This document shows, one piece after another, positions 141-23,794 of a stretch of DNA of 32,090 nt (position 1 is the first letter of the stretch; every line of letters starts with the position of its first letter). Source of the stretch: Cytophagales bacterium (GTDB lineage: Bacteria > Bacteroidota > Bacteroidia > Cytophagales > Spirosomataceae); the NCBI GenBank assembly GCA_013298125.1, contig JAAFJP010000050.1:1-32090 (forward strand), in the 5' to 3' direction. The notes below the pieces were generated by a model. It searched no databases. It was given only the letters and a program-made list of their open reading frames with translations, and was not told the origin of the DNA. A program made the position numbers and the translations under genes.

Positions 141-3100
141 TCAACGCCCACAAATCCGCCGATAATCGCAATACACACAATTTTCAACATCCTTCCGCTT
201 CTCAAAAGGCTTTTCTGGATTGAGTAAATCTTGGACGAATGCTTGCAGATATTGCTCTGATTCATGGAGGAAATCAAAGATGGTTTCGCCTTCATGGAAG
301 GAAATATTTTGTTGCAAAAGCCCTTCTTCAATATTTCGGAATGAATAAATCCCTGAGCTGACGGTGTTTTCGGTTTCGTCTAATTTTATGCCTCTGATGG
401 TCAAGCCCTTGGAGGAAACCATTTGCTTCAAAACCATGTATTTGTACAACCACAATTGTCGGAATTTATCTTTGTCTTTATCCGTCAAAAGTGTTTCGGC
501 AAGGTCTTCTGCATTGATTTTCAGGTCTTTGGCTTCTACTTTTCCAGTTTTGTAATCAATTACACGTACATGACTTCCGCCCGTTCTGTCCATTCTGTCA
601 ATACGTCCTGCAAATTTTACGGGTATCATTTTGTTATTGACATCCACCATAAATTGTACTTTTAAGGTCTTCTCAACGTCTAATAATTCAAGTGGGAATA
701 TCTCATTTTTGAGTTGATAAGTCAAAAATTTCTTCACTATTGTCTCTCCAACTTGATACAAAACATAGTTCATTCCTTCCTCCGCCCGCAAGCCCATGTT
801 GGTTTCTTTGAAGGCTTGTTTAAGGTAAGAATCTATGTTTTCTAAAACCTTTTCCAAATCTTCTTTTTCTACCACACCGCCATTTTCTACAAACTCTTTA
901 TCAATGTTTTCAAAGGTTTTATGAATCCAGTTTCCGAAGGTATCGACCCCAATTTTTTCTTCCACAACTTCCTCCTCCGCAATACCCGCAATCCTACTAA
1001 AATAGTATTTCAACGAACAATCCAAATACTGGTTCATGTGAGACGGGAAGATGCCTTTTTCGGTAATTTCTTTTTCGATAAAATCTAAAATATCCTCCGT
1101 TTTATGAATTTCTAATTTGGCTTCGTCTTGCTTTTCTTCATCACCCGCAATAAACTTCACGACGGGATAAGTCAGCGTAATATTAGGGTTCATTTTTGCC
1201 AATTCATGCTCAATTTGCAAAATAAAGCGACTTTTCTCGCCCGCCCCATACGTATCTGAGGGCAATACGTGAACTAAAACCACCTCTTTGGCACGTTGCA
1301 AAAGCCTAAAAAAGTGATACGCCATCACCGAATCTGCGTGATTGTGAGTCGGCAAATTGAACTGTGGGTCGGTCAAAGCATCAAACGGAATTAGCGTGTT
1401 TTGTCGTTTGCCTTGGGGCAAAGTTCCTTCGTTTACGGACAAAATTATCACCTTTTCAAAGTCCAAAGTACGGGTTTCTAACATTCCCATTATTTGCAAA
1501 CTTTCCTCGGTTTCCGACTCAAAAGGTATCTTGGTTTGCTTAATAAATTCATAAAGAAAAGTCTTGAAACTCCGCATCGTTACGGTGTCTTTTCGTTCTT
1601 CCAAAATGCCTTCCATGCGTTGCAAAATCAAGTAGAATTGATACAAATATTCCGTCTCAATCGCATCTTGATTTTCTTTATAAACGTCTCTTAATGAATC
1701 AATTAATTCATAAAAACACTTGATAGCGTTCTGTGGTTTGTTATTCCAATGTTTGAAAATTATCGCAAACATCGGGTCATCATTTGAGAGTTCTGCAAGG
1801 TCTTTTGAACTTAGGAAAACACGATTTCTGTCGGTGATTTCTTGGAGGGTTTTTCGGATGGGGTTGAGAACCTCACCCCCGACCCCTCTCCGATGGAGAG
1901 GGGAGTTTTCTTCCGCAAGTTCATCCTCTAATGTCGGACGAATGCTCCCCTTCTTAGAAGGAGAGGGGGCTGGGGCGACCGACGCTTCGGGGTGAGGTTG
2001 TTCTGTCTTATTCTTTAAATAATATAAAATCGTTTTTAAAACTTCATTATGATTATCAATAACCTCCTCATTTTTAAACCTCAAAACTCTAAAACCTGCT
2101 TCATTTAGTTCTAAGGTTCTATATTCATCATATTTTGGATTGTCATTTATTTGATGGATTTCTCCGTCGAGTTCTATGATTAGGTTTGTATCAATATTGA
2201 TAAAATCGACTATATAACCCAAAACAGCGTGTTGTCTTCTAAATTTATAGTCTTCTAATTGCTTTCCTCTCAAAAATTGCCATAATTTTTCCTCCGATTT
2301 AGTTGGATTTTTACGATTTTCTCTTGCAGGTGGTTTTAAATTTTTCCATGTTTGGGCATCTGTTGTGTGGAAGTTTGCAAGTTTTTCAACCTCACCCCCG
2401 ACCCCTCTCCTGCTGAGAGGGGAGAGTTCGTCCGAAGAATCTTGTGGTAGATTATTAATCTCTCTCCTGCTGAGAGGGGAGTATTCATCCGCAAGTTCGT
2501 CCTCGAATGTCGGACGAATACTCCCCCTCTCAGAAGGAGAGGGGGTTGGGAGGTGAGGTTCTTGTGGGTCTCCTTGATAATTCATCAACTCCCACCGCCT
2601 CAAAAACGGATGATTCAAAACTTTCACCACCTGTCGATGCGAAAATTTGGGAACCTTCACCGTCCCGCCCTCTTCGGTTTTAAATTCTACCAAATTTCTT
2701 TGTAATTCAAACAAAGAGTCAATCAACGTAAATAATTGAGAATTCCGAAGCGAAAGCCCCATCGTGATATTAAATTCCTTCACTGATTCATCCAAAGAAT
2801 TCATCACGGGAACGAGTAGATTTTCATCTCCGAGGACGATAGCAGTCTGAGGTGCTTGGCTTTTGGCTGTCGGCTTTTGGCTGTCGGCAATCGGCTGTTG
2901 GCTGCCAATTTCATCACTCTTTCCGCTTTCTCCTTCCTCCCTTTCTCCCTTCTTCCCTTTCTCCTTACCTCCCCAACCTCGATAAATATGCCCCGCCACC
3001 TTCGCCTGAATACTCGCATTCGATACACCAATAATTTGAACATTTTTATGACCTTTCAACAACTCGTCCGTTTCCCACGTCCATTCGTTGTTGAAAAGGG

Positions 3101-3893
3101 GCGTGATGCCGTTTTTATCATCGCCGTTTTTATAATATTTCAACCAATCCCCTGCCTTTTGGTCTTTATTTTTAATGAAGTAAGTATCTGAATCCCAGAG
3201 AGTTTCGCAGAGATTTTTATTTTTAAGTAACGTTCTAATAATTCGTTCTTCGGCATCACTGAGGGCATTGAAGCCTACGAAATAGTATTTGTTGTGGCGG
3301 TTTTTATCTAAGATATATTTGTCCACATTCTCCGCCAAATCACGATACGCCATTCCACGATAGACTAATCCTTTGTCAGTCAGTCGATTACGGAGATTTT
3401 GATAAACCGTATGGATATTCTCAAATAACTTAAAATATCGGTCAGTACGGTCAGTTTTGAGGTTTCTATCTTTCTGAGATTCACCCAATTGCATCTGCCA
3501 ACGCTCCAACGCTTTCGCCTCCGACATATACGAAAAAAGGGCTTTGGCATCGACTAAATATTGGTCAATTTTATCAAAATCATTCAAGAGCGTACTCGCC
3601 CAAGTCATAAACCGTTCAAAGACAACATTTGGGTCAATTTCTTTGAAAACATCATATAATTCAAAGAGCAAAGCCACAGGGTCAATCTGCCGAAGACCCG
3701 TCATTTCCATCACAAAATCATCCACCGCCAGTACATCAGGAGCAAGGAAAGGCACATCCGAAAGTCGAGCAAGGGCTTGTTTGAAATACAAAACTCCACG
3801 CCGAGACGGAAGCACAATGCAAGTCTTAGATAACTGATTATGAGTATGTTGTGAATAAATATGTTGAGCCGAACGGTCTAAGAAGGTTTGCAT
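141..3893 (-). CDS. AddB-like PD-(D/E)XK exonuclease/helicase subunit with an in-frame DUF559 insertion
   Basis: This 1250-residue protein begins with an AddB/RecB-type pattern (IVLPSRRGVLYFKQAL, residues 26-41). It ends with a RecB-type nuclease domain: RIDRMD, then VIDYKTGK with the catalytic Asp near residue 1113. Cysteines at about 1239, 1242 and 1248 (CVYCDYRRIC), plus an upstream Cys in YLDCSLKYYF, match the 4Fe-4S staple of AddB nucleases. The family role is double-strand break end-processing with an AddA helicase, which is not in this window. Residues ~445-675 are foreign to the family: two Pro/Ser/Gly-rich repeat peptides flank a DUF559 endonuclease domain (~510-625). Residues ~305-347 are a second low-complexity insert (Lys/Glu/Gly-rich, then a Ser/Gln/Pro/Lys repeat). 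From memory, Bacteroidota relatives are roughly 950-1000 residues, so the inserts explain most of the excess. The frame stays open throughout. Start ATG 3891-3893. Confidence 0.88.
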   Translation of the reverse strand: MQTFLDRSAQHIYSQHTHNQLSKTCIVLPSRRGVLYFKQALARLSDVPFLAPDVLAVDDFVMEMTGLRQIDPVALLFELYDVFKEIDPNVVFERFMTWASTLLNDFDKIDQYLVDAKALFSYMSEAKALERWQMQLGESQKDRNLKTDRTDRYFKLFENIHTVYQNLRNRLTDKGLVYRGMAYRDLAENVDKYILDKNRHNKYYFVGFNALSDAEERIIRTLLKNKNLCETLWDSDTYFIKNKDQKAGDWLKYYKNGDDKNGITPLFNNEWTWETDELLKGHKNVQIIGVSNASIQAKVAGHIYRGWGGKEKGKKGEREEGESGKSDEIGSQQPIADSQKPTAKSQAPQTAIVLGDENLLVPVMNSLDESVKEFNITMGLSLRNSQLFTLIDSLFELQRNLVEFKTEEGGTVKVPKFSHRQVVKVLNHPFLRRWELMNYQGDPQEPHLPTPSPSERGSIRPTFEDELADEYSPLSRREINNLPQDSSDELSPLSRRGVGGEVEKLANFHTTDAQTWKNLKPPARENRKNPTKSEEKLWQFLRGKQLEDYKFRRQHAVLGYIVDFINIDTNLIIELDGEIHQINDNPKYDEYRTLELNEAGFRVLRFKNEEVIDNHNEVLKTILYYLKNKTEQPHPEASVAPAPSPSKKGSIRPTLEDELAEENSPLHRRGVGGEVLNPIRKTLQEITDRNRVFLSSKDLAELSNDDPMFAIIFKHWNNKPQNAIKCFYELIDSLRDVYKENQDAIETEYLYQFYLILQRMEGILEERKDTVTMRSFKTFLYEFIKQTKIPFESETEESLQIMGMLETRTLDFEKVIILSVNEGTLPQGKRQNTLIPFDALTDPQFNLPTHNHADSVMAYHFFRLLQRAKEVVLVHVLPSDTYGAGEKSRFILQIEHELAKMNPNITLTYPVVKFIAGDEEKQDEAKLEIHKTEDILDFIEKEITEKGIFPSHMNQYLDCSLKYYFSRIAGIAEEEVVEEKIGVDTFGNWIHKTFENIDKEFVENGGVVEKEDLEKVLENIDSYLKQAFKETNMGLRAEEGMNYVLYQVGETIVKKFLTYQLKNEIFPLELLDVEKTLKVQFMVDVNNKMIPVKFAGRIDRMDRTGGSHVRVIDYKTGKVEAKDLKINAEDLAETLLTDKDKDKFRQLWLYKYMVLKQMVSSKGLTIRGIKLDETENTVSSGIYSFRNIEEGLLQQNISFHEGETIFDFLHESEQYLQAFVQDLLNPEKPFEKRKDVENCVYCDYRRICGR
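1869..1999. repeat. Palindromic CCTCACCCC/GGGGTGAGG repeat, copy A
   Basis: A 131-bp GC-rich dyad whose outer arms are AACCTCACCCC and GGGGTGAGGTT. Inner complementary blocks are CCCCTCTCC and GGAGAGGGG. A central block contains TTCATCCTCTAATGTCGGACG. On the minus strand it is translated as a Pro/Ser-rich peptide with GSIRPTLEDELAEENSPL and RRGVGGEV. The same reading frame is used by copy B. Confidence 0.85.
2388..2560. repeat. Palindromic CCTCACCCC/GGTGAGG repeat, copy B
   Basis: A 173-bp relative of the repeat at 1869-1999, in the same orientation. It is 42 bp (14 codons) longer because the CTCTCCTGCTGAGAGGGGAG block occurs twice (about 2404-2423 and 2462-2481). Translated on the minus strand it gives GSIRPTFEDELADEYSPLSR and SPLSRRGVGGEV. 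These are near-identical to the peptide from copy A. Confidence 0.85.
2850..2975. repeat. Low-complexity repeats translated inside the AddB-like protein
   Basis: Two adjacent word-repeats interrupt the AddB-like coding sequence without breaking its frame. At about 2855-2905 the plus strand repeats GGCTTTTGGCTGTCGG with variants, read on the minus strand as SQQPIADSQKPTAKSQAP. At about 2915-2970 a CTTTCTCCTTCCTCCC-type pyrimidine tract is read as a Lys/Glu/Gly-rich stretch. Neither resembles the surrounding family sequence. Confidence 0.7.
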
Positions 3894-22404: not shown

Positions 22405-22500
22405 AAAAGTTGTAAGTCTATAAGTCTTTAAGTCGTAAGGTTGTTTAAATATACACCAACAAATCTGAGTGTTTCACTTATAGACTTACGACTTTAACAT
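22405..22500. repeat. AAGTCTATAAGTC-family inverted repeat between waaA and rsgA
   Basis: The left arm (about 22407-22441) reads GTTGTAAGTCTATAAGTC. The right arm (about 22475-22497) reads ACTTATAGACTTACGACTTT, its near-exact reverse complement. The right arm encodes the last residues of WaaA (VKVVSL) and its TAA stop. The left arm begins 10 bases before the rsgA ATG on the minus strand. Confidence 0.8.
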
Positions 22501-23794
22501 ACCTAATTACCTTATCCGTCCCCCCTAAATTCTCCTCCACGTATTTTTTGATGATGTCTGATTTTTGTTTTCTTAAATCTAAATTATCGTATAATTTTTC
22601 AAATTCTCTCTTAAAATTTTCTGTATTCTCAATAACAATTGCCCCTGTAAGTTTCTCTAAATCAGTAGCTTCTTGGAATTTTTGATAGTTTTTATTGCCA
22701 AAAAATATCGGTAAACCAAACGTTGCGGCTTCCAAAATATTATGTAGTCCTTTTCCATAACTTCCGCCAATCCACGCAAAATCGGCGTATTGGTACAGAC
22801 TTGATAACATTCCGATATTGTCGATTATTAAAGTTTCTAAGTTTTTAAGTTGTGAAGTCTCGAAGTTATTAAGTTCTGAAAATTTCTTTGTTTCTCTTTT
22901 CAACTCTTTACTCCAACTTTCAATTTCATCCTCATGTATCTCATGCGGGGCGATGATTACTTTTAATTCTTTTGTAAAATTATTCAAAAAAGGGGCAATT
23001 ACCGCAAAATCTTCTTGCCAACACGAACCTATGATTAATAAAGGTTTTCCATCCTTGAATTGTTCAATGATGGGCAATATCTTTCTGGCATCCGCAATTT
23101 GTTTTACTCTATCAAAACGAGTATCTCCGCCAACTATAACGTTCTCAATACCAACACTTTGCAATAATTCTAACGACAATTGATTCTGCACAAAAATATG
23201 GTCAAAATACCTTAAAATATTTCGATAAAATCCTCCGTACCATTTAAAAAATACTTGATTTGGTCTAAAAATAGCTGAGAAAGAAATGACGGGTATTTGC
23301 TTTTCGTGAAGGATTCGGAGGTAATTATACCAAAATTCATACTTCACAAAAAAGGCTATGGAGGGATTTATTTTTTCAATAAAATCTCGTGCATTAGCGG
23401 GCGTATCTGAAGGCAAATAACAGATAAAATCAGCCCCTGCATAGTTTTTACGCACTTCGTAGCCCGATGGTGAGAAGAATGTCAAGACGATTTTATGGTC
23501 AGGGAAGGTTTCTTTGTACTTTTCAATGACAGGTCGCCCTTGTTCAAATTCACCGAGAGAGGCACAGTGGAACCAAGCGGTTTTTATGGTTTTGAGTTCT
23601 GAGTTCTGGGTACTGGATTCAGGGTTCTGATTACTGAGTTCCAAGTTCTGGGTTTTATATTCTATTTTTTTTGAACCCAGAACCCAAAACTCAGAACCCA
23701 AAACCCTTAACTTCGCCTTCTTATTAAAAGGACTCACCGCCCAAATAATAAAATGATAGCAATAAATAGAAAGATTATATAGAAATGCTGACAA
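22478..23794 (-). CDS. waaA: 3-deoxy-D-manno-octulosonic acid (Kdo) transferase with in-frame repeat insertions
   Basis: A 438-residue WaaA/KdtA, which transfers Kdo from CMP-Kdo to lipid A precursor at the inner membrane. N-terminal hydrophobic anchor (about 5-22), then WFHCASLGEFEQGRPVIE (73-90) with the catalytic Glu, TFFSPSGYEVRKN, YEFWYNYL, GDTRFDRV, IIGSCW, APHEIHE, WIGGSYGKGLHNILEAATFG and a GG.DK.I end. The start is TTG at 23792-23794, since no ATG precedes the conserved FLYNLSIYCYH segment. Residues ~29-69 (with VLGSEFWVLGS and TQNLELSNQNPESSTQNSEL) are encoded by a palindromic repeat. Residues ~306-323 (FSELNNFETSQLKNLETL) look repeat-derived as well. The last residues VKVVSL come from a third repeat. 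A TAATTTTG box at 23818-23825 is a likely promoter. Confidence 0.93.
   Translation of the reverse strand: MSAFLYNLSIYCYHFIIWAVSPFNKKAKLRVLGSEFWVLGSKKIEYKTQNLELSNQNPESSTQNSELKTIKTAWFHCASLGEFEQGRPVIEKYKETFPDHKIVLTFFSPSGYEVRKNYAGADFICYLPSDTPANARDFIEKINPSIAFFVKYEFWYNYLRILHEKQIPVISFSAIFRPNQVFFKWYGGFYRNILRYFDHIFVQNQLSLELLQSVGIENVIVGGDTRFDRVKQIADARKILPIIEQFKDGKPLLIIGSCWQEDFAVIAPFLNNFTKELKVIIAPHEIHEDEIESWSKELKRETKKFSELNNFETSQLKNLETLIIDNIGMLSSLYQYADFAWIGGSYGKGLHNILEAATFGLPIFFGNKNYQKFQEATDLEKLTGAIVIENTENFKREFEKLYDNLDLRKQKSDIIKKYVEENLGGTDKVIRYVKVVSL
22826..22880. repeat. AAGTTTCTAAGTTTTTAAGT words inside waaA
   Basis: A short run of AAGTT(T/G)(C/T)-type words related to the 22405-22500 family. It is read in frame on the minus strand as FSELNNFETSQLKNLETL within a variable loop of WaaA, just before the conserved IIDNIGMLSSLYQYADFAWI segment. 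Confidence 0.55.
23589..23712. repeat. GAGTTCTGGGTTCTG-family inverted repeat translated inside waaA
   Basis: The left arm (about 23592-23664) repeats GAGTTCTG, GGGTTCTG and AGTTCTGGGTTTT. The right arm (about 23685-23712) reads GAACCCAGAACCC and ACTCAGAACCCAAAACCC, complementary to it. The whole palindrome is open in the waaA frame and lies between the membrane anchor and the catalytic WFHCASLGEF segment. Confidence 0.8.

Follow-up and report, generated by a model that had tools for sequence, protein, structure and literature searches.

The window, a stretch of 32,090 nucleotides, encodes on its reverse strand an AddB-like protein of 1250 aa (141..3893, minus strand) whose frame is open throughout and which carries a C-terminal PD-(D/E)XK nuclease domain (PDDEXK_1 match). 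Residues 445-675 (1869..2561, minus strand) form an insert that is open in the host frame and is absent at the same place from the AddB of G036. Within it, residues 519-626 (2016..2339, minus strand) were assigned to the DUF559 (Vsr-like) nuclease domain by profile (PF04480, E-value 8.6e-33, 112.9 bits against a curated cut-off of 20.6) and by fold. The only other Pfam match inside the insert is a weaker, overlapping one to MTES_1575, and no tethered DNA-binding module was found among these matches. The domain lies between two flanking palindrome units, one on its C-terminal side (1869..1999) with ends AACCTCACC..GGTGAGGTT and one on its N-terminal side (2388..2560) with the same ends. The first unit holds the palindrome CCCCTCTCCGATGGAGAGGGG (1883..1903) and an imperfect palindrome (1947..1968), and the second holds the palindromes CCCCTCTCCTGCTGAGAGGGG (2402..2422) and CCCCTCTCAGAAGGAGAGGGG (2524..2544).

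A preliminary description of this DNA had proposed that paired palindromic repeats carry the nuclease in frame inside the host, adding about 230 residues that lack a methionine, with the spacing between matching ends divisible by three. This is borne out by an insert of 231 residues with no methionine in the frame 141..3893 (minus strand), and by spacings of 519, 561 and 576 nt. The description had also taken the flanks to be two direct copies of a palindrome. Direct copies are indeed present (85-87% alike), but each flank proves to be a complete unit that contains palindromes and has inverted matching ends. The length of the block 1869-2560, 692 nt, is not divisible by three, and the net gain relative to the insert-free G036 allele is 696 nt, so the remaining 4 nt would have to be small differences in the flanks. 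Elsewhere in the window, a different 14-nt direct repeat (GGCTTTTGGCTGTC, 2858-2906) lies in frame in the AddB gene far from the DUF559 insert, and a second protein (22478-23794) carries, close to its N-end, a degenerate repetitive stretch (VLGSEFWVLGSKK..TQNLELSNQNPESSTQNSEL), perhaps another type of in-frame repeat.

We searched 61 genomes of the window's family for a stretch of AddB that lies immediately downstream of the insert, and 59 have it. The AddB frame is 1199-1272 aa long in three of these (the window, G052 and G028) and 737-1069 aa long in the other 56, so that by frame length the insert occupies 3 of 59 AddB genes; this rules out an ancient fixed domain. The site was inspected directly in the three filled genes as well as in G036, G001, G005 and G007. 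In G036, which belongs to the same genus, the empty site is VLNHPFLRRYELIRFKAEQENPIRKTLREIT, and the window has VLNHPFLRRWELMNYQGDPQ, the insert and then LNPIRKTLQEIT. Homologues without the block, which the preliminary description had proposed to look for, are thus the rule in this family (56 of 59 by frame length, with the site read in those four).

The window's genome carries DUF559 twice, in the AddB-like gene and, in frame, in its only IleRS. The preliminary description had also suggested searching for the repeat around DUF559 in other genes, and repeats of the same kind were found around DUF559 in a second gene of this genome as well as in relatives. DUF559 is present in 28 of 61 genomes of the family and 192 of 396 of the class, each species being represented by one genome. 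Among the 150 class matches listed, at least 85 lie in frames of at least 300 aa (two being the window genome's own), and we newly fetched the regions of 60 of these 85 together with 20 short ones. A scan of relatives' contigs, covering the best 80 of 578, gave 67 matches in long frames and 14 in short frames; the named carriers among these 80 are two Anaerolineae assemblies and otherwise Bacteroidota by title. The in-frame copies L266 and L289 are in Anaerolineae (Chloroflexota) assemblies, L266 within an MmeI-like restriction enzyme. After domains with identical ends were dropped, at least 132 different copies in long open frames remained (131 and the window's), mostly from Bacteroidota, where the 131 include terminal fusions, frames truncated at contig ends and a single frame containing masked bases (L127). 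The collection was confined to open frames, and an out-of-frame copy inside a gene would be listed as a short frame; such copies are outside the sample, so these counts do not give a rate of in-frame insertion.

At least 23 host families with the domain inside were named by profile: AddB-like, LeuRS, IleRS, MetRS, chorismate synthase, adenine deaminase, PaaZ-like, Lhr, UvrA, MmeI-like, UvrD-type, CinA, CCA-type polymerase, HsdR, CoA transferase, MnmE, MetH, RecG, AcsA, RecJ, SpoIIE-type phosphatase, IcmF and MCM. This patchy distribution over many gene families differs from that of a phylum-wide domain with one fixed position, the outcome that the preliminary description had named as counting against it. 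Site labels for the 131 copies were assigned by flank motifs, and 32 remain 'other'. The HisF, IspF and RluD-like cases are terminal fusions; in L139, L146, L237, L246, L257 and L278 the DUF559 is at the N-end and the frame continues into other enzymes (HisF, IspF etc., by eye). In each of the eight genomes with a filled IleRS, that IleRS alone exceeds the cut-off. One MetH-type gene (L048, in G007) has two different DUF559 inserts, and its relative L049 (in G006) has an insert at one of the two sites and, at the second, a palindrome-like remnant of about 50 residues. Helicase-like proteins gave partial DUF559-like matches (L056, L057, L058 and L059) that had no flank peptides of the palindrome kind by eye and were not counted.

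At LeuRS site 2, relatives have an empty loop, palindromes only or the full nuclease. The palindrome-only state was found in G143, G069, G179 and both LeuRS genes of the window genome. The latter pair (L214 on contig 2 and L326 on contig 3) are 978 aa each, one with palindrome-only inserts at both sites and the other at one. Across the class, the LeuRS frame carries DUF559 in 18 of 139 genomes (15 read directly and three by shared coordinates), a count that leaves out G195 and G175, whose LeuRS frames break at the same place but were not established to contain DUF559. Insertions made up of palindromes alone, at sites that elsewhere hold the nuclease, fit removal of the nuclease by recombination between the flanks, among other explanations. 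A predicted structure of one whole filled LeuRS (L292) was set aside (pLDDT 62, pTM 0.34).

Phylogenetic trees of the domains indicate both inheritance and movement. In a tree of 100 domains, built with a quick search on few columns, one branch (SH-aLRT 96) comprises 66 rows, 64 in genes and two freestanding, with hosts mixed within it, and eight in-frame copies fall outside this main branch. The matching branch of a 174-row tree (SH-aLRT 80) contains 124 in-frame and 16 freestanding rows, and again eight in-frame rows lie outside. On the 100-domain tree LeuRS site 1 needs eight changes, and the MetH and SpoIIE inserts cluster together. Distances between inserts correlate with distances between their hosts, with r of 0.32-0.83 across eight sites and a permutation p <0.05 at six of these. 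Simple inheritance thus explains some of the pattern; because the correlation is partial and sites are mixed within the clade, movement is indicated as well. G067 has two phosphatase genes with a host dN of 0.76 and near-identical inserts at the same site (dN 0.012). Similarity between these paralogues drops off past the right palindrome, the one boundary visible, since the other copy's left flank is lost at a contig end.

The palindrome pattern CCCCTCTCN2-6GAGAGGGG has 245 copies in the window's 5.85-Mb assembly and the reversed pattern, a control, has 0. We examined 24 units in fetched stretches of this genome. Moving outwards from CTCACC/GGTGAG, the bases are complementary in 24, 23 and 23 of 24 units and then in 9 of 24, and the end triplets beside CTCACC covary as AAC/GTT, AGC/GCT or CAC/GTG in nearly all 24. 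Terminal inverted repeats, the mark of IS and MITE elements, are therefore present, and GTAG-tagged ends were not found in these 24 units. No clear target-site duplication was seen at the AddB insert site. The 24 units have lengths in each of the three phases (10, 8 and 6), which excludes a reading frame built into the unit and makes it more likely that the open frames result from selection. In a 393-kb sample of the window genome (all of contig 2, the first 100,000 bases of contig 3, and parts of contigs 4 and 5 picked for holding palindromes), 7 of 23 palindrome units lie deep in open frames, five near frame ends or in short frames and 11 outside frames.

Inverted ends are also found around DUF559 more widely. 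We compared 300-nt flanks with single-base shuffles and took control windows from these same loci, a few of the genomes being represented twice. The inverted match between flanks exceeded all 20 shuffles in 118 of 136 in-frame copies, 34 of 41 freestanding copies and 26 of 356 control windows, and GC stems of at least 7 bp on both sides were found in 74 of 136, 22 of 41 and 0 of 356, respectively. Five DUF559 loci on plasmid records from other phyla all have inverted matches above their shuffles (128/20, 41/26, 27/22, 29/24 and 28/27). The freestanding plasmid genes L330, L332 and L334 (Synechocystis, Pseudanabaena and Deinococcus) have inverted GC-rich flanks, and those of the Synechocystis gene have a similar core, CTCAC..CCCCTCTCC. 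As carriers of the element itself, plasmids and phages gave only distant matches (best identities 48% and 40%, in 38 and 2 records).

Of 72 copies found by profile, the window's included, all 72 keep the catalytic residues D58, E69, D71 and H75 (insert numbering), which agrees with the earlier claim that the acidic residues are intact. D58, E69 and D71 are present in all 132 copies, 60 of which are biased towards these residues because the motif that retrieved them includes E, D and H. Insert dN/dS is 0.03-0.10 in 8 of 10 close pairs, those with measurable dS (two domains were used twice; dS is saturated in two pairs and above 1.2 in three more), and on this measure the inserts are under strong purifying selection. 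An AlphaFold model of the nuclease domain (pLDDT 85.5, pTM 0.79) matched best to 3hrl, a DUF559 protein, and to I-Bth0305I, with Vsr the ninth match at a weak E-value of 0.15. Kinship with I-Bth0305I is seen in fold (Foldseek 6.5e-5, TMt 0.77) and by profile (1.6e-6; just 0.2 with the window sequence alone); in the one profile alignment an E and a D match and the conserved D, D and H fall on A, N and W. The preliminary description had further concluded that the module depends on its host for translation. This accords with the methionine-free window insert, but 16 of 140 insert-side tree rows are freestanding, and an in-frame ATG was found near the domain start (50 codons checked) in 72 of 131 inserts versus 38 of 42 freestanding copies. 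Lack of methionine is thus not a general rule of inserts.

With close relatives in frame inside many other everyday proteins, the insert looks like a mobile element within working genes. We consider it probable that it is a mobile nuclease element which has palindromic ends and is retained in the frame of its host proteins, and whose spread its own nuclease would drive. The earlier reading of a nuclease spliced into a host frame is supported overall, and the checks proposed with it came out its way. Such an element would consist of inverted palindromic ends with a Vsr/DUF559-type nuclease between them. It would enter many housekeeping genes at apparent loops or linkers (judged from host sequence) and persist where the host frame stays open across the entire block, so that host translation would make the nuclease as part of the host protein. 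The nuclease may cut the empty site, or the palindrome; repair from the filled copy would spread the element to alleles and paralogues, and rarer jumps would take it to new genes. Palindrome-only units would be its non-autonomous forms, and the insert would presumably stay in the finished protein as a tolerated domain. The element may be a parasite, or it may be tolerated or useful.

The palindromes might instead be the mobile part, moved by a Y1/RAYT-like transposase or by replication errors, with DUF559 a trapped passenger, which we judge unlikely while giving it real weight. Palindromes far outnumber DUF559 in the window genome (245 and 2), RAYT-type genes are common (Y1_Tnp is present in 55 of 61 family genomes), the window's domain sits between two complete units like a composite element, and G036 has 15 palindromes and no DUF559. 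However, palindrome number follows in-frame DUF559 rather than Y1_Tnp. At least five copies were found in 7 of 9 family genomes with in-frame inserts versus 4 of the 52 others (Fisher p 2e-5), and at least ten in 6 of 9 versus 2 of 52 (p 4e-5), with cut-offs chosen after the counts were seen and kinship among the 61 genomes uncorrected. G006 and G054 have inserts yet 0 and 1 copies of the window palindrome, their insert flanks being other palindrome types by eye, and G025 and G036 have 22 and 15 copies with no in-frame insert seen. Neither L205 nor L206, which gave the best matches among five Y1 loci in the window genome, contains the exact palindrome in its 3.3 kb; given this and the ubiquity of Y1_Tnp, no link to RAYT as the obvious mover was found. 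Freestanding members of the nuclease family are flanked as well, and the active site is under selection, which is unexpected for a passenger. The tracking of palindrome number favours DUF559 over RAYT as the palindromes' partner and leaves its role as mover putative.

Purifying selection would also be expected if DUF559 were a useful accessory domain recruited by its hosts, for example for DNA repair or defence, and several hosts are repair genes (AddB, RecG, RecJ, UvrA and UvrD-type). We find this improbable: tRNA synthetases, MetH, chorismate synthase and acetyl-CoA synthetase share no common function with them, occupancy is patchy (3 of 59 AddB genes by frame length, LeuRS in 18 of 139 class genomes), and a search for a PADLOC defence-system label gave no match. 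Removal of the insert by protein or RNA splicing before the protein works would make carriage neutral, which would help where the filled IleRS is the sole one above the cut-off, as in all eight cases. It is nevertheless very improbable, as no intein domain was found in Pfam searches with E-values up to 0.1, Rfam at gathering scores matched nothing in the window and so gave no intron RNA at the insert, the insert bounds have no Cys/Ser start or Asn end, and frames are open through the inserts (only open frames having been collected). Many carriers are metagenome assemblies and repeats break contigs (L124 begins inside an insert), yet an assembly or binning artefact can be practically dismissed because frames are open across both junctions and strain-titled records carry the insert (Flavobacterium cucumis, Winogradskyella litoriviva, Winogradskyella sediminis, Marivirga aurantiaca, Larkinella rosea and others).

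Homing nucleases are generally considered to need splicing (intein or intron) or an intergenic place to spare the host. If the mobile-element reading is true, in-frame residence in essential enzymes would be a third way. The family would then offer a candidate mover enzyme for in-frame palindromes, account for the extended versions of MetH and of certain tRNA synthetases in Bacteroidota, and provide a natural inventory of positions where essential enzymes can accommodate a domain of at least 100 residues. More tentatively, with the chances slightly against it, it could represent a mobile-element class of its own: a Vsr-type nuclease that spreads itself by homing into exact loop positions in essential genes with no intein or intron, escapes selection as a tolerated host domain and seeds hundreds of non-autonomous palindromes that behave likewise. 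No description of DUF559 as an in-frame insert was found in the literature searched, which lay mostly outside subscription papers.

Inteins are nuclease-bearing in-frame inserts in conserved proteins, patchy and at recurring sites. The window insert resembles them in its nuclease, patchiness and recurring sites, whereas the splicing domain and junction residues of inteins are absent from it. REPINs are dispersed pairs of inverted palindromes, and the element is like REP/RAYT systems in having dispersed inverted-palindrome pairs as probable non-autonomous forms and an enzyme gene flanked by repeats. The enzyme there is a Y1 HUH transposase and here a Vsr-like nuclease, and the two RAYT loci checked in the window genome are not flanked by the window repeat. 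REPtrons, as described in the sections of PMC3733652 drawn on here, likewise have an enzyme gene flanked by repeats.

The catalytic domain is akin in sequence and fold to that of the EDxHD homing endonuclease I-Bth0305I (PDB 3r3p). The latter was deposited as a mobile intron protein, whereas no intron, intein or extra DNA-binding module was found for the element. The EDxHD family is treated in part of PMC3943268, and a DUF559 gene is assigned to it in a passage of PMC9403480. Vsr-like DUF559 endonucleases (VsrA; NGO0050, PDB 3hrl) belong to the same domain family but are freestanding proteins. In Caulobacter, an SOS response of cells lacking a methyltransferase depends on VsrA according to PMC12907096, which supports nuclease activity of the DUF559 family.

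Short in-frame palindromes are already known as RPE and intragenic REP. The sections of PMC3733652 drawn on here report palindromic repeats inserted into the frames of functional genes, among them genes for DNA repair and for tRNA synthetases, and a palindromic insert at nearly the same position of recB in two Xanthomonas species; over half of the inserts encode 20-30 residues, and those sections describe no enzyme. The ends differ too, being AAC-CTCACC and variants in the window genome and not GTAG or CGTC. The likeness lies in a dispersed palindrome in frame inside genes (7 of 23 units in the 393-kb sample). RPE and intragenic REP are short units free of an enzyme, as are the palindrome-only units of the window element, whereas the element itself carries a complete nuclease.
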